DNA from: Rossellomorea orangium
Lineage (GTDB): Bacteria > Bacillota > Bacilli > Bacillales > Bacillaceae_B
DNA length: 64,000 nt
Direction: 5' to 3'
Assembly (NCBI RefSeq): GCF_019334305.1
Contig: NZ_JAHWGH010000025.1
Span: 186,001 to 250,000, forward strand
The notes below the pieces were generated by a model. The model made no database searches, had not been told where the DNA came from, and was given only the letters and a program-made list of their open reading frames with translations. Within the stretch, counting starts at the first letter, position 1; the number at the start of each line of letters is the position of its first letter. Shown in pieces: positions 25,456 through 40,820 of this stretch. Made by a program: the position numbers and the translations under genes.

Positions 25456-27428
25456 TGTAAACCAGCTTCTTTTCCTAATGGATTTTCCACATCAGCATAA
25501 AGATAGCCTGCGCTTGGTCTCAATCTCATCTTCGTCAATGCTTTGTGGTTTACTTTTTTATGATATAAAAATTGACGATCTTCTATCACATTTACTGGAA
25601 CTTCATGGGACAGGGAGGAAAAAATGTCGTCACAAGCCTCTTTGACCAACGTCCAGAATTCCCCTTCAAATACGCCTGACGCTTCTACAAGTAGACGGAT
25701 AATCTCTCCTAAATGATTCTGGAAGATTGTATAGTGCGCTTTTGAATACATTTCTTCCTTATTTTCAGTCAACGTGATACTTTCAGGGTAAAACTTCGGA
25801 TACATTCCTCTTTCTTCTAATCGCCTCTTGTAAATTCTTGCCCCACCCCAATCCCTGAAATAGAATCGAACCGGCTTCCCTTTTTTAAAAACAGGGATAC
25901 TATTCTGAAGATGTCCTTCTAGTGCAACACCATATTTTGTTAGCAGTGTTAGATAGCCTGGAAGTGTGACAGATAAATAGTCCTTAAAGAAGAATCGTGC
26001 GCCTTTTCCCATGGTCAGGTTACGATTCGCGCAGTATTCTGTGAGAAGCTCGGCAAGAATCGTATCTTCAGAAAAAGGAGAGGTTGCATACAAGCTATTC
26101 CCAGTGATCATGACCTCATCTTCTTTCAATTCATCCTCCCTGTTTTCTCTTACAACCACGGTCAGATTTCTTTTTTGTTCACTGTCATCTGAAATGAATG
26201 AGTATCCGGCGATTTCATCTAGTGGTAAAAAGGTTGATAACTCTGCCTCATTGCTTAGCACTTCACCCACTAAAGTACTGAAAACGGTGCTGTTTAGAGC
26301 TGTTTGAGTGGAAATCGACCTTACCGTGGACGTCATCTGACTGTTAACGGCCAATTTCACAAATCGATTGGATTGTGTAATGGGCATGACTGTTCGAAAG
26401 GACGATGTAGCATGACATTCAACGCTGATTGAATCAATAGGTACGATGATCCCCTTTTCAATTTCATTCTCGTATAAACTATATAAGGCATGATGAAATT
26501 GCCATTCATGAACGGGCATGAGTTGGAACAGTTCAGGAGCCAGATCGTTCTCTTCCATGAATTCATGGTAACGCGGAATAACTTCTTCAAACGTCTTTTC
26601 AATTACATACGGTTCTGATTCGGTGAATTCTATCCATTCTTTTCGGATCGCCAAAAAGCAAATTTTGTACGTTTGCCTGAATTCCGGGGAATATTTAGCC
26701 ACATCTTCAGGACTCATTCCCATTTTGGTTTTTGAACCGGGATGCAAATGGTGACCTTCAACGCTCATCTGCTCGAAGAATGCGAGAGAACTCCACGCGG
26801 GTTCTACCTTCTTCATATTTTGGATGTACTGGAATGTGGAATGATAGTGGGATAATTGAGAGTCCGCCCTAAGCTTCTCTTTCCAGTGCGATTCTGCGGC
26901 GTAGCTGAGTGTTTGATTTGCTGTACCATTGTCAAGTTCACGAACCAGTGCCTTTCCTTCTTCAGTCAGACCCAGAAGGTTCATTAGCTCACTTGCCGTT
27001 TGAATACTACGATGGGATTCACGTGATATCCACACGATGTCTCCTTCTAGTGTGACTCGTTGAAAGGCGAGTTCGGATTTAATGGGAAATAAGATCATAT
27101 ACTCACCGAAGGATTTCATTCTGTATGAAATCCCTTCTTTTAATTCAACATTCTGCAGCTGGTGAAGGAAAGGCTCCCATTGTTTGTACACTTTTAACAG
27201 ACTTGTGACATATACAGATCCTATTTTCTTAATTTGTACAGAATCGCTGTATAGTGAGTTTACGTTTTCTCTTAAGAGGGAAGCGGCCAATTTATGGAGT
27301 ATCGCCTGTCGTCCTTTTTTTATATTCTGTTTAAAGTGTGTAACCAAATGCGGTTGCCTTTCTTCCAGGTAGCTCATACATTTTAATTCATCTTCAAGCC
27401 AGTTGATTTTTGCAGATAGTAACTTCAT
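25452..27428 (-). CDS. NIS siderophore synthetase, IucA/IucC family (second)
   Basis: 658 aa. The ATP-binding signature VEGHHLHPGSKTKMGMSPED (about 225-244) and the second half conserved in IucA/IucC enzymes (LEGHLQNSIPVF about 512-523; RDWGGARIYKRR about 535) are present; a FhuF-like C-terminal domain runs to about 620. NIS synthetases adenylate a carboxylate of citrate and form an amide with an amine. The start (AAAGGGG upstream) lies inside the end of the first synthetase gene with a 35-bp overlap, implying coupled translation. Confidence 0.92.
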   Translation of the reverse strand: MKLLSAKINWLEDELKCMSYLEERQPHLVTHFKQNIKKGRQAILHKLAASLLRENVNSLYSDSVQIKKIGSVYVTSLLKVYKQWEPFLHQLQNVELKEGISYRMKSFGEYMILFPIKSELAFQRVTLEGDIVWISRESHRSIQTASELMNLLGLTEEGKALVRELDNGTANQTLSYAAESHWKEKLRADSQLSHYHSTFQYIQNMKKVEPAWSSLAFFEQMSVEGHHLHPGSKTKMGMSPEDVAKYSPEFRQTYKICFLAIRKEWIEFTESEPYVIEKTFEEVIPRYHEFMEENDLAPELFQLMPVHEWQFHHALYSLYENEIEKGIIVPIDSISVECHATSSFRTVMPITQSNRFVKLAVNSQMTSTVRSISTQTALNSTVFSTLVGEVLSNEAELSTFLPLDEIAGYSFISDDSEQKRNLTVVVRENREDELKEDEVMITGNSLYATSPFSEDTILAELLTEYCANRNLTMGKGARFFFKDYLSVTLPGYLTLLTKYGVALEGHLQNSIPVFKKGKPVRFYFRDWGGARIYKRRLEERGMYPKFYPESITLTENKEEMYSKAHYTIFQNHLGEIIRLLVEASGVFEGEFWTLVKEACDDIFSSLSHEVPVNVIEDRQFLYHKKVNHKALTKMRLRPSAGYLYADVENPLGKEAGLH

Positions 27429-29295
27429 CAGTATTCCCCTTTCGCGTTAATGGATTGGGAGCGCTAATATATACGTTTTCCGTAAATGCATTAGAAAGAC
27501 GCATCTTTATCAGTGATTTTAAGTAAGTGACAGGACCGAAGATTTCCTGTTCGAATTGAGATGCATTCTTGCAGTGGGCTGCATCTTCTTTTATAGAATC
27601 AATTGTAGATTGGATGACTTCCGCAACCTGTTCCCACAGAAGTCCTTCGGAAAGTCCGGTATCCTTTATAATTCCTACGATGATTTCTCCTAAATGGTTG
27701 TGCAGGACTGCATGTGAGAACATTTTATATAGATCAACAGCTTCTGTAGTAAGTAAGTTTGTTTTATTACTGATTCTTCCGTCTTGGCACTGTACTGGAA
27801 GGCGATTTTTTAATATTCTAATCCCTCCGTTGTCACGAATCATCAATGTTTTTGGACAATCGTTTTCAAAGATCATGATGGCATTTTGAAGATGGGCTTC
27901 CAGACTGACCCCATATTTTATGATTAAATGAATAAGTCCCGGAATAAGTGTATTGGAGTACTCATGAATAAAACGGACTGCAGCTGCTTCCACAGAAACA
28001 TTTCTTTCTATTGACCATTTTTCAATGATTTCAAGTGAAAGTACCTTTCCCGACATCGGTGAAGTGTTAATTAGAGCGGCTCCTGGAACAGCTATTTGTC
28101 CTTTCTCCAGTTTCTTTTCAGGATTTTCCCTGATAAGAGCGGACAAGTTTTTTTCTAGATTGATAGATGTTTCTATCCGATGAGAACGATAATGCCCCCC
28201 GCCACATTCTGATAAAAAATGTATCTTCTCCTTAATTTCCGGATCGTGAATACAAACGATATTCAACAGTTCCGAGATTATAGGACCATTCCATACCGAT
28301 GTAGGAGAAACGATTCTCTTTGCACTGGTCATTTGAACATTTAATGCTGTCTTCAAATGGTGATGTCTCCGGTTATGGGGTGCTAAAGAACGAAACGAAA
28401 TGAGCGCCTGTGAAGGGATGGTCATGTCAATTGGAATAAGCAGTCCCTGTATCAACTCTTCCTTAAAATAACACTTTACAATATGCTCGAATTGCCAAGG
28501 GTGGACTGGGATGATTTCGTAGTCTTTTAGATCTTTCTGTAACTCTTTGAATTGTCTCTTCATTCCAATTTCAATGGCAGGATATTCTTTCAATAAAATC
28601 TCTGTCATGGTCGGTCCACCTTTTACAGTGCTGAATGACGAAATATCTTTATGAATGGCGACAGGGTGGACGTTTACCTCTCCCTTCCATTCTGGAGCAT
28701 ATTTCATCACTTCTTCCCCTGTTAATCCCAGCCTGGTTTTCGAACATGGATGGAGTGTGTGGCCTTCAATGACCGATTGCTCCAGGAAAACAAGCGGACT
28801 GAACTCAGGGTTCGAAGACTGTCGGTGCAGGTACTCAAATGTCCCTATACCTGAGTAAAGGTCCTTCTGCAGCTCCTCTGCCGCTAATGCCAATGCGTCA
28901 TTTTTCACACTGTCCTCCAGTTCATTTATAAGAAGTTCTAATTGTCGGGAATCTACTTTAGGGAAAAGTTCTTTGATTAACTGTGTCGGTGTATGTATTT
29001 GGGTAATAGACCCTTCTTTTTTAACAGTAATTCTCCCTCCGATATCCAACTGTCCAAGGAAGTAGGAATTTTCTATCGGTACGGTGATCTTGACGTTTTT
29101 CACTGGTGTGATGTAGATGAGCTTTACATTTTCTTCTGTGGTTTCATAGGTGTATTGAATGAGTCCTTCCCGTATCATGGCCTGCATTAATTTATTGAGG
29201 ATACGAGTTTCTGATTGTTTTAGTTTTTCATTAGCTAGTTTTTGAATCCTATTGTACTCATCTTGTTCTGAATGGCACCCAGTAGATAAAGTCAT
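27394..29295 (-). CDS. NIS siderophore synthetase, IucA/IucC family (first)
   Basis: 633 aa. Signature IEGHTLHPCSKTRLGLTGEE (about 180-199), HPWQFEHIV (about 275), LEAHLQNAIMIFEND (about 475) and IRDNGGIRILKNRL. First gene of the four-gene operon; AGGAGGAA lies 7 bases before ATG and a Fur-box promoter is just upstream. Two NIS enzymes with one PLP enzyme and one MFS transporter equal the gene content of the staphyloferrin A (sfa) locus, so a bis-citrate siderophore built on a diamine is a reasonable guess; the product cannot be proven from sequence. Confidence 0.92.
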   Translation of the reverse strand: MTLSTGCHSEQDEYNRIQKLANEKLKQSETRILNKLMQAMIREGLIQYTYETTEENVKLIYITPVKNVKITVPIENSYFLGQLDIGGRITVKKEGSITQIHTPTQLIKELFPKVDSRQLELLINELEDSVKNDALALAAEELQKDLYSGIGTFEYLHRQSSNPEFSPLVFLEQSVIEGHTLHPCSKTRLGLTGEEVMKYAPEWKGEVNVHPVAIHKDISSFSTVKGGPTMTEILLKEYPAIEIGMKRQFKELQKDLKDYEIIPVHPWQFEHIVKCYFKEELIQGLLIPIDMTIPSQALISFRSLAPHNRRHHHLKTALNVQMTSAKRIVSPTSVWNGPIISELLNIVCIHDPEIKEKIHFLSECGGGHYRSHRIETSINLEKNLSALIRENPEKKLEKGQIAVPGAALINTSPMSGKVLSLEIIEKWSIERNVSVEAAAVRFIHEYSNTLIPGLIHLIIKYGVSLEAHLQNAIMIFENDCPKTLMIRDNGGIRILKNRLPVQCQDGRISNKTNLLTTEAVDLYKMFSHAVLHNHLGEIIVGIIKDTGLSEGLLWEQVAEVIQSTIDSIKEDAAHCKNASQFEQEIFGPVTYLKSLIKMRLSNAFTENVYISAPNPLTRKGNTDEVTICKNQLA

Positions 29296-31995: not shown

Positions 31996-32391
31996 ATGGC
32001 TGTTATGTTTAGTAAACTGATGTGCAGATTCGGTATCGGGGCAACAAAGATTGATTTAGTATTGAATAAAAAGGAGTTCCGGCCAGGTGATGTCATCAAG
32101 GGTGAATATGAACTTACCGGAGGAAGGGTCGAACAGAAATTAAAGAGGATCGAAACGGACCTCCTTCAGTATAATCACTCCATGGATCGTTCATCTGTTC
32201 TTCACCAAAATACCATATTAAGTTCATCCACCATGAAAGCAAACGAACAACGGTCCATTCACTTTTCGTGCAGACTTTCAGATACTTTCCCGCCGAGCAG
32301 TGAAACACTTTCCTATAAGTTTGTCACACGCCTGGTCTTCGATGATGGTGTGAACAGTGTGGATCATGATGAGTTTCAAATTTTGATATAA
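31996..32391 (+). CDS. SpoOM-like (arrestin-fold) protein, first copy
   Basis: 131 aa, about half the length of Spo0M (~258 aa). It matches the N-terminal part of the SpoOM family: CRFGIGATKIDLVLNKKEFRPGD (about 10-32), GGRVEQKLKRIETDLL (about 42-57) and FKFVTRLVFDDGVNSVDHDEFQI-like C-terminus (about 108-129). Spo0M proteins have an arrestin-like beta-sandwich and influence sporulation and cell cycle. Start is ATG 31996 or ATG 32005 (GAGAGG upstream fits both loosely). A close paralogue lies at 37061. Confidence 0.8.
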   Translation: MAVMFSKLMCRFGIGATKIDLVLNKKEFRPGDVIKGEYELTGGRVEQKLKRIETDLLQYNHSMDRSSVLHQNTILSSSTMKANEQRSIHFSCRLSDTFPPSSETLSYKFVTRLVFDDGVNSVDHDEFQILI

Positions 32392-36158: not shown

Positions 36159-36584
36159 CTAATGATTTTCGGTATAGATCGTTTGCAGGTAGGTTACTGA
36201 TTGAAGGATCAATTGCTTTAAAACAGATTCATCTATATCTGCCATTTGGTTTATGTATACACAAGCTTTTCCCGATGTATGTTTTCCAAAAGTATCTAAA
36301 AGTTTTTCCCTATTCGGGTCACCAGTGGCAAAATAAAGGCTTATCTTCGCTTTACGGGGTGAAAACCCCACAAGTGGCGCATCCCCCTCGTGGCCGGTCT
36401 TATATTTGTAGTGATATGAACCGAATCCAATAATACTTGGTCCCCACATCTTCGCGTCGTATCCGGTGGTTTCACTAAAAATATCAAGAAGTCTATATGC
36501 GTCTTCCTTTTTTCTCGAATTGTCAATCCTCTCAATAAATTCAAGTACACTATTATCATTTTCTTTCGTTTTCAATTCATACAT
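36159..36584 (-). CDS. DUF1801 family protein
   Basis: 141 aa. Typical DUF1801 segments: KKEDAYRLLDIFSETTGYDAKMWGPSIIGFGSYHYKY (about 29-66), GDAPLVGFSPRKAKISLYF (about 72-90) and GKACVYINQMADIDESVLKQLI (about 110-131). Small cytosolic proteins with a YdhG-like fold and no known activity. Divergent from the Mn-riboswitch transcription unit. Confidence 0.85.
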   Translation of the reverse strand: MYELKTKENDNSVLEFIERIDNSRKKEDAYRLLDIFSETTGYDAKMWGPSIIGFGSYHYKYKTGHEGDAPLVGFSPRKAKISLYFATGDPNREKLLDTFGKHTSGKACVYINQMADIDESVLKQLILQSVTYLQTIYTENH

Positions 36585-36683
36585 TTGAGCATCTCCTTTT
36601 CATTGACATCATTACTCACTACTTCGCTTTTTTCGTTGTGGATTCCTGCATGGGATATGACTTTTCTTAGTACACCATTTCCA

Positions 36684-36712
36684 TTGACAACCAACATAGT
36701 ATGAAGTATGAT
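36684..36712 (+). promoter_or_regulatory. sigma-A promoter of the Mn-riboswitch unit
   Basis: TTGACA (36684-36689), exact 17-bp spacer, TATGAT (36707-36712). Transcription should begin near 36719, about 18 bases before the aptamer. Confidence 0.8.
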
Positions 36713-36736
36713 TGTCTCATAATTTAATATTCTCCT

Positions 36737-36823
36737 AAAGGGGAGTAGCTGTAACAATAAAGTCGTCATTACAGAGTGTACACTCTCGGCTTTATTGACA
36801 ACAATGTTGTTAGCGAGACCTTT
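36737..36823 (+). ncRNA. yybP-ykoY manganese riboswitch aptamer
   Basis: Conserved 5' AAAGGGGAGTAGC and 3' TTAGCGAGACCTTT close the P1 stem (AAAGG/CCTTT). Between them: AATAAAG...CTTTATT as P3 with the conserved GTCGTCA in the metal-binding loop region, GAGTGTACACTC as P3.1, and GACAACAATGTTGTT as P4. This order and these loop sequences are those of the yybP-ykoY family, which senses Mn2+. It sits between a strong promoter and an intrinsic terminator, i.e. a transcriptional switch. Confidence 0.88.
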
Positions 36824-36854
36824 ACCAGTTGGTGAAGGCTTATATATGTTCATT

Positions 36855-36890
36855 AAAGACCTTTACCGCAACCGGTAGAGGTCTTTTTCT
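36855..36890 (+). terminator. riboswitch expression-platform terminator
   Basis: AAAGACCTTTACCG pairs with CGGTAGAGGTCTTT (one G-U pair) around a short loop, then TTTTCTTT. Its 5' arm repeats the aptamer's own AGACCTTTACC, so the 3' arm can pair with either copy, a plausible switching element. Confidence 0.85.
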
Positions 36891-36923
36891 TTATCACTTC
36901 ACTTTGAAAGGAAGTAGTGGAAC

Positions 36924-37061
36924 ATGAAAAAATTAAAAACAAACCTCTCGCAACTAATAGAACAAAACAAAGAAGAAATTTTGAGCGATCAACAAGAATT
37001 AGATAAAATCGAGAAAAAAATAGACATGAAATATACTTCTACCAATAAGGAGAATGCCTAA
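36924..37061 (+). CDS. FbpB-family small basic protein, 45 aa
   Basis: ATG 36924 with GGAAG upstream; reads MKKLKTNLSQLIEQNKEEIL then SDQQELDKIEKKIDMKYTSTNKENA. The pattern 'LxxLI-xNK-EIL-D---LxKIE-KI--K' is that of the Fur-regulated basic protein FbpB family; B. subtilis FbpB works with the sRNA FsrA in iron sparing. Here the gene is behind a Mn riboswitch, not a visible Fur box. Its stop overlaps the next start (TAATG), so it is coupled to the SpoOM-like gene. Confidence 0.72.
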   Translation: MKKLKTNLSQLIEQNKEEILSDQQELDKIEKKIDMKYTSTNKENA

Positions 37062-37447
37062 TGATTTTGCGGAAATACATGACCCTCTTCGGTATAGGTT
37101 CGGCTAAAATTGATTTGGTCTTACCCAAATCGTCATTTAAACAAGGAGAACTTTTGCATGGGTATTTCTTTTTAGAGGGCGGAATCATTGAACAAAAACT
37201 GAAGCGTGTAGAATGTGATTTGGTTATGATCGATAGAAATGGGAAGGAAGAAAAATGCATTGATTCGACTACTGTATTAAAATCGGACATCATTCGTGCG
37301 GAAGAACGAAATAAACTTTCCTTTACCTACCGTATACCCGGTAAACTCCCTTCTTTTGAATCAGGATCACGGTTTCTGTTCAAGACCAAGCTGACATTTG
37401 ACCAGGGGGTTGAAAGCGTGGATGAGGATTACATCTCAATTGTATAA
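37061..37447 (+). CDS. SpoOM-like (arrestin-fold) protein, second copy
   Basis: 128 aa, paralogue of the protein at 31996 (shared GIG-AKIDLVL, GG-IEQKLKR-E-DL, and F-KT-L-FD-GV-SVD-D). AAGGAG inside the preceding gene's end serves as ribosome site, and the ATG overlaps that gene's TAA. Covers only the N-terminal arrestin lobe of Spo0M. Its position behind a Mn riboswitch suggests a link with Mn homeostasis, which has not been described for this family as far as I know. Confidence 0.8.
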   Translation: MILRKYMTLFGIGSAKIDLVLPKSSFKQGELLHGYFFLEGGIIEQKLKRVECDLVMIDRNGKEEKCIDSTTVLKSDIIRAEERNKLSFTYRIPGKLPSFESGSRFLFKTKLTFDQGVESVDEDYISIV

Positions 37448-37449
37448 AG

Positions 37450-37480
37450 AAAAGGCTCGCAGACAGCTGCGAGCCTTTTC
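37450..37480. terminator. bidirectional intrinsic terminator
   Basis: AAAAGGCTCGCAG pairs with CTGCGAGCCTTTT around a two-to-four-base loop; serves the SpoOM-like gene and the 45-aa gene opposite. Confidence 0.85.
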
Positions 37481-39947: not shown

Positions 39948-40820
39948 TTAATTCGGTTCGACATGAACATGGACGTCATAGACTTCGTGCTTATCCTTCA
40001 ACTCACCCTCAACCTCACTCGATATATCATGTGCCTCTTTAATATCCAGAGTAGATCTAACCAGGATCACCACATCTACAACCGTATTATTCCCGTAATT
40101 TCTTGCCCGTATATCTTTTACGCCTTTCACCCCAGGGAGATCGAGGACCGTTTTCTCATAAGATTGTATAAGCTCTTCATCGAACCCGTCCGTTAGGTAA
40201 TGAGAGGCTTCCATAAAAATGTTCCAAGCGGTTTTACAGATCAGAAGGCCGACAATGACTGCTGTAAGAGGGTCTAACCAAGGAAAAGAGAATTGAGATC
40301 CAAGAATGCCGATAACGGCACCAATGCTCACCCATGCATCTGAAAGGTTATCTTTAGCTGCAGCCATAAGGGATTGACTATTGATTTTCTGTGCTAATTT
40401 TTTGTTGTACCTATATACAAGGTACATGACTATCGCTGCACCTATGCCGGTCCAAGCGGAAAGTAGGTCCGGGGATTGCGTCTTTCCATCAAAAACAGAC
40501 TGTATGGCATTGTACAATACCTGGATACCTACGACCATCATGATAAACGAAGCTATCAAAGAAGCCACGCTCTCCGCTTTCCAATGACCGTATGGATGAT
40601 CATGATCTGCGGGCTTCCTCGAATATCTAAGGCCAATCAGTACGGCAACGGAAGCAACGATATCTGTCGCATTGTTCAGACCATCTGCTCTCAAAGCTTC
40701 AGAGCCGGCAGATGTGCCGATAAAAAATTTCATAATAGCTAATATAATATAAGCAATGATACTAATGATTGCCCCACGCTCACCCAGCTTTAACTGATCA
40801 TATTTTTCTTGATTCACCAT
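39948..40820 (-). CDS. cation diffusion facilitator, probable Mn2+ exporter (MneS/MneP-like)
   Basis: 290 aa: six-span CDF domain (about 15-210) and cytoplasmic C-terminal dimerisation domain (about 215-290, ending DVHVHVEPN). Metal site residues: TM2 NNATD (N-x3-D, about 48-52) and TM5 DNLSD (D-x3-D, about 156-160), the N/D-type arrangement of manganese CDFs, versus HxxxD in zinc ones; HDHPYGH follows TM2. Expected to expel Mn2+ by proton exchange. The Mn riboswitch lies 3 kb away but not directly upstream. Confidence 0.88.
   Translation of the reverse strand: MVNQEKYDQLKLGERGAIISIIAYIILAIMKFFIGTSAGSEALRADGLNNATDIVASVAVLIGLRYSRKPADHDHPYGHWKAESVASLIASFIMMVVGIQVLYNAIQSVFDGKTQSPDLLSAWTGIGAAIVMYLVYRYNKKLAQKINSQSLMAAAKDNLSDAWVSIGAVIGILGSQFSFPWLDPLTAVIVGLLICKTAWNIFMEASHYLTDGFDEELIQSYEKTVLDLPGVKGVKDIRARNYGNNTVVDVVILVRSTLDIKEAHDISSEVEGELKDKHEVYDVHVHVEPN

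Follow-up and report, generated by a model that had tools for sequence, protein, structure and literature searches.

Overall Architecture of the Operon

The window, a stretch of 64,000 nucleotides from Rossellomorea orangium, carries on its forward strand a two-gene operon preceded by a structured leader that contains a yybP-ykoY Mn2+ riboswitch aptamer, the hairpins of its expression platform, and an intrinsic terminator. The σA-type promoter (36684-36712), read directly from the sequence, is composed of a −35 element, TTGACA (36684-36689), a 17-nucleotide spacer, and a −10 element, TATGAT (36707-36712), exactly where the original prediction had placed it, and a comparable promoter is seen ahead of the leaders of relatives. 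The first gene (36924-37061) encodes a 45-residue protein of the FbpB family, and the second (37061-37447) encodes a 128-residue protein that resembles one lobe of the arrestin-fold protein Spo0M. The two genes overlap in the sequence TAATG, as had been predicted, and a hairpin followed by a U-run at 37450-37479, also read directly, closes the operon.

The Mn2+ Riboswitch Aptamer

The aptamer (36728-36811) matches the Rfam covariance model RF00080 over the full model length with a score of 40.7 bits and an E value of 6e-10 in a local scan or 2.4e-9 in a scan of the whole genome. As this score falls under the RF00080 gathering score of 45 bits, a default Rfam scan of the window at gathering thresholds reports no matches, which is an effect of the cut-off and not an absence of the aptamer. 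In an even sample of the order comprising 299 genomes and 116 genera, RF00080 is matched in 179 genomes and only 67 of these reach 45 bits; a score below 45 bits is thus a property of the cut-off. The original prediction of a yybP-ykoY element is therefore borne out by a significant covariance match, even under the gathering score, and by its helices and sensing residue. In an alignment of 54 relatives, 96.9% of cells are paired and double changes occur at 12 of the 26 pairs, values that none of 500 shuffles reaches. The L1 consensus GGGGAGUAGC is present as GGGGAGTAGC at 36740-36749 and is invariant in the alignment.

In this class, Mn2+ is coordinated via the N7 of an invariable L3 adenosine, A41 in the Lactococcus lactis element and A48 in that of Xanthomonas oryzae (PMC6754395). 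The equivalent residue here is A36768 in loop L3 (UCA), which is invariant among the 54 aligned aptamers, and the surrounding CGTCA is present in all 77 of the leaders that precede Spo0M-like genes (Spo0M leaders). The aptamer would accordingly be expected to bind Mn2+. Matches to the 23S-methyl and mir-231 families over the terminator are under their own gathering scores and were taken as hairpin look-alikes. The nine-base string GGGGAGTAG, which occurs on the opposite strand of another locus (L218) and at an additional site in a further one (L176), was put down to chance, with no covariance match at either position.

The Expression Platform and a Proposed Switch

The aptamer belongs to a known riboswitch class, with an unusual expression platform. 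The P1.1 switch helix (36736-36824) is formed by UAAAGG (36736-36741) and CCUUUA (36819-36824) and is 100% paired across the 54 relatives. Its 3′ strand, A (36819-36826), can alternatively pair with strand B (36831-36838) to form the competing hairpin A:B, CCUUUACC-AGUU-GGUGAAGG (36819-36838). The U-tract that follows A:B is weak in the window; the tail is more U-rich in most other genera, in which A:B may itself be a terminator. The intrinsic terminator C:D (36855-36888), composed of a stem at 36855-36886 and a U-run, has a predicted stability of −19.6 kcal/mol. Its 5′ arm, C, contains CCTTTACC at 36860-36867, an exact copy of strand A, and in this respect the original reading of a terminator that repeats part of the aptamer was accurate. 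Of 75 leaders with a recognizable terminator, nearly all have a C that is identical to A at seven or more of eight positions and a B that is able to pair with it; in one leader, L107 from Domibacillus, the divergence of C from A weakens B:C. Outside this core, the stem shows compensatory variation across leaders (AAAG/CUUU, GGG/CCC, and AAAA/UUUU).

At its 5′ end, the leader is predicted by folding to form a second competing element, an anti-aptamer hairpin TATTCTCC-TAAA-GGGGAGTA (36728-36747), that would sequester the L1 loop as well as the 5′ side of P1.1. The sequence CTCC is found upstream of GGGGAG in 75 of the 77 Spo0M leaders, and a 5′ hairpin of −5 kcal/mol or lower is predicted in all 77, compared with 9% of shuffled upstream sequences and none of the 30 Rossellomorea leaders that precede TerC genes. 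This hairpin may raise the Mn2+ threshold of the Spo0M leaders. The copied second terminator likewise has no counterpart in the 30 TerC leaders, each of which has a single hairpin of this kind. In the R. marisflavi-type genomes without the FbpB-like gene, the Spo0M leader (L028-L030 and L111) has one terminator, the 3′ arm of which pairs with the P1.1 strand itself, and the two-terminator platform is thus missing there as well.

In the L. lactis element, Mn2+ stabilizes P1.1 and prevents termination, and the 3′ strand of P1.1 otherwise joins the terminator (PMC11087558). By analogy, we infer an ON switch for the window leader. At high cytoplasmic Mn2+, the aptamer would bind the ion and P1.1 would close, taking up strand A; strand B, so released, would pair with the terminator arm C; and RNA polymerase would continue past the terminator to transcribe the two genes of the operon. 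At low Mn2+, the 5′ hairpin and A:B would keep the aptamer open and C:D would stop transcription. A single Mn2+-controlled strand exchange would in this way be handed on to a duplicated second terminator. The thermodynamics place a constraint on such a relay: C:D (−19.6 kcal/mol) is favored over B:C (−10.3 kcal/mol) even with P1.1 forced, and in equilibrium folding of most leaders, C:D persists when P1.1 is forced closed. The relay must therefore be kinetic or only partly effective, and would require either that B:C forms first during transcription or that C:D is leaky.

Conservation of the Arrangement

A close ortholog of the Mn-linked Spo0M-like gene is present in 33 of 36 Rossellomorea genomes, and in all 33 an RF00080 match lies just upstream. 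A PF13040 (FbpB-family) open reading frame (ORF) stands between the two in 30 of these 33, so the order riboswitch-FbpB-Spo0M does recur in related genomes; the remaining three, of the R. marisflavi type, have no FbpB and carry Spo0M directly behind the riboswitch. A collection of named genomes yielded 80 orthologous loci, which span Rossellomorea, Metabacillus, Peribacillus, Cytobacillus, Domibacillus, Mesobacillus, Litchfieldia, Lederbergia, Robertmurraya, and others. The aptamer lies within 700 bases of Spo0M at 76 of the 80 loci, and two more have the order Mn riboswitch, TerC, Spo0M, bringing the genes behind an aptamer to 78; of the two remaining loci, one is truncated by a contig end. 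In the order sample, the Spo0M ortholog is found in 60 of 299 genomes (20 of 116 genera), and 59 of the 60 have a copy behind the aptamer. Overall, the arrangement recurs in ∼15-20 genera of Bacillus-like bacteria.

The FbpB-like ORF is present at ∼55 of the 76 riboswitch-Spo0M loci and absent from ∼21, about a quarter. The Mn-responsive module of an FbpB-like and an arrestin-fold protein that was originally proposed is thus strongly conserved, but its core consists of the riboswitch and Spo0M. Across the sequences compared, these two are the constant partners, and FbpB is optional.

The FbpB-like Protein

The 45-residue protein matches PF13040 (Fur_reg_FbpB) with 45.5 bits against a cut-off of 25. 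Across 18 Rossellomorea sequences, the frame of this ORF has a pN/pS of 0.27, whereas the two alternative frames give 0.84 and 1.09, which identifies the ORF as a translated gene under purifying selection. A quite different role, in which the ORF is mainly a leader, translated in order to couple Spo0M translation to its own through TAATG, would fit the one-base overlap in the window and in many Rossellomorea and the weaker constraint on this ORF than on the Spo0M-like gene (pN/pS 0.10). This role is highly improbable, as the residue pattern is kept between genera in which the genes are 15-110 nucleotides apart and coupling through an overlap is impossible.

The original description of an FbpB-type basic protein holds as to the domain and the reality of the gene, but not as to its charge or its equivalence to FbpB. 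With nine Lys and Arg residues, nine Asp and Glu residues, and a pI of 6.2, the window protein is not basic; its orthologs from two other genera have pI values of 9.5-9.7. In the NCBIfam FbpB equivalog model NF033227, it scores 26.5 bits and does not reach the cut-off of 60. The likeness to Bacillus subtilis FbpB consists of the PF13040 domain, ∼38 residues long; the window protein differs from FbpB in that it is under the equivalog cut-off, is not basic, lacks a nearby Fur-box-like site, and is encoded behind a Mn riboswitch. No Fur-box-like site is found in 36401-37100 within four mismatches of the 15-base consensus, and the suggested connection to the Fur/FsrA response is not upheld near the promoter. 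Another PF13040 protein of the same genome (48 residues, pI 9.3; G000:C18:160335-160448, minus strand, L172) also fails the NF033227 cut-off, with 24.9 bits, and the 4 kb examined for its gene contain no Fur-box-like site. The PF13040 proteins of this genome may thus not be Fur-regulated FbpB.

These observations bear on the idea that the operon produces a Mn-switched, FbpB-like RNA chaperone that tunes iron and manganese sparing together with a small RNA, as FsrA does with FbpB. Membership in PF13040 and the link between FbpB and FsrA in B. subtilis are consistent with such a function, although FbpB itself is not proven to bind RNA (PMC7430163). The failure of the equivalog model, the lack of a nearby Fur-box-like site, the nonbasic character of the window copy, and the absence of FbpB from ∼21 of 76 riboswitch-Spo0M loci make this function rather improbable. 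A siderophore-synthetase-like protein, similar to FslA/SbnF and under their cut-offs, is encoded on the minus strand at 27394-29295 of the window.

The parallel to Escherichia coli MntS, also put forward originally, is not supported beyond the presence of a small protein in a Mn regulon. MntS is repressed by MntR and made when Mn is low, whereas the window gene is predicted to be on when Mn is high. Moreover, the sole MntR-like match, TTCTCCTAAAGGGGA, has 5 mismatches in 15 and is the aptamer hairpin itself; the control element that is present is a Mn riboswitch.

The Spo0M-like Protein

The 128-residue protein matches PF07070 with 62.6 bits against a cut-off of 23, over profile positions 1-134 of 213. 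An AlphaFold2 model computed from an alignment of 47 sequences has a pLDDT of 82.5, and the best Foldseek match of this model is B. subtilis Spo0M (PDB 5cl2; E value 3.9e-9, TM-score 0.75 on the query), followed by the N-lobes of human arrestin-domain proteins. The protein thus has PF07070 and a predicted arrestin-type β-fold in common with B. subtilis Spo0M, in line with the original identification of a one-lobe Spo0M. The main differences are that B. subtilis Spo0M has two lobes and ∼250 residues, and that the window protein has one lobe and is under Mn riboswitch control.

B. subtilis Spo0M influences sporulation, and division proteins are among its interaction partners (PMC5325327). Together with the homology to PF07070 and 5cl2, this activity is compatible with a Mn-induced operon whose Spo0M protein works in sporulation or in cell division, the co-occurrence with TerC reflecting a common inducer; in such a scheme, the supply of Mn, which is needed for sporulation, would be coupled to the Spo0M pathway. 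This scheme is unlikely. The genome has a separate, full-length 265-residue Spo0M-family gene and other one-lobe paralogs without an aptamer. In addition, the Mn-linked copy forms a distinct clade, with ∼46-55% identity even between genera, and its recurrent neighbors are membrane metal genes. One of the paralogs, also one-lobed and 38% identical, lies 5 kb upstream in the window (31996-32391, plus strand) without a Mn aptamer. The two one-lobe paralogs stay side by side in most Rossellomorea, and the three Rossellomorea genomes that are without the Mn-linked Spo0M retain the paralog of the 31996-32391 type.

Genomic Association with TerC, DUF1232, and CorC

The recurrent neighbors were found by clustering the ORFs around 42 loci, in which same-strand downstream genes recur in the operons of relatives. 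A TerC gene (PF03741) is located downstream in 18 of the 80 orthologous loci and upstream of Spo0M in two, for a total of ∼20 of 80; a DUF1232 gene (PF06803) follows in ∼31 of 80; and a CNNM/CorC protein is encoded in ∼9 of 80. In R. marisflavi strain Bac144, the order is riboswitch-FbpB-Spo0M-TerC, and the riboswitch is the single RF00080 match of the genome. In the window genome, TerC lies outside the FbpB-Spo0M operon; the genes are split between two Mn riboswitches, of which the other precedes TerC. Flanking DNA was examined at 30 more Mn riboswitches of Rossellomorea (29 loci and L001 of the window genome), and all of these precede TerC. A third, weaker Mn riboswitch in an R. vietnamensis-type genome (G034, L220, 1700-2130, minus strand) is instead followed by a short ORF rich in Ser, His, and Lys and by a gene resembling those of Ser/Thr kinases, which is unusual as a target of the class. 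Within the window, a cation efflux protein of the CDF family (TIGR01297, 248 bits) is encoded on the minus strand 2.5 kb downstream of the operon (39948-40820).

The closest known system is the ykoY/meeY riboswitch-TerC operon of B. subtilis and relatives, with which the window locus shares the aptamer class, the P1.1 switch strand, and an intrinsic terminator. Many relatives of the window locus also carry TerC in the same operon. The window locus differs in having Spo0M-like and FbpB-like genes first, and in the 5′ anti-aptamer hairpin and copied terminator of its leader.

Discussion

The genes known to follow Mn2+ riboswitches mostly encode transporters and TerC proteins. In B. subtilis, meeY has a Mn riboswitch, and TerC/MeeY is active in Mn efflux and in the metalation of exported enzymes (PMC10550928). 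The operon linkage seen in relatives and these roles of TerC/MeeY place the soluble proteins, by guilt by association from gene order, in the TerC branch, where they would assist TerC-type Mn export or metalation. At about two chances in three, we favor the reading that the locus is a Mn2+-ON antitermination operon whose soluble products serve the TerC/MeeY branch of Mn homeostasis. The Spo0M-like arrestin-fold protein would be a soluble adaptor in this branch, which handles Mn efflux and the metalation of exported proteins, and the FbpB-like peptide would be an optional helper. What sequence comparison establishes is the aptamer, its conservation, the operon, and the linkage of the relatives' loci to TerC, DUF1232, and CorC. 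To our knowledge, neither Spo0M nor FbpB has a demonstrated metal role, which counts against the favored reading, as does the location of TerC outside this operon in the window genome.

A more specific version is possible but doubtful: a bacterial arrestin-fold adaptor would be made only at high Mn2+ and, together with an FbpB-like peptide, would control the membrane proteins TerC, DUF1232, and CorC as they export metal or carry out metalation, its mRNA using the two-terminator relay.

In the open literature searched, no paper was found that treats yybP-ykoY together with FbpB, and the papers on Spo0M with manganese or riboswitches, to judge from their titles and abstracts, have no bearing on this link. 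A riboswitch-FbpB-Spo0M operon was likewise not found described in that literature, which did not include the two founding 2015 papers on Mn riboswitches.

Taken at the level of sequence, the feature is real and is conserved more widely than a single sequence could reveal. With this finding, the Mn/TerC system gains two widely conserved soluble proteins that operon structure ties to TerC, a protein whose partners and mode of action are still under study. The finding also supplies a specific hypothesis for the role of one-lobe Spo0M and of some FbpB-family proteins. In addition, a naturally occurring riboswitch whose switch strands are duplicated allows a direct test of whether a ligand signal can be passed from one terminator to a second. 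The recurrence with TerC points to an undescribed role for these proteins in manganese handling.
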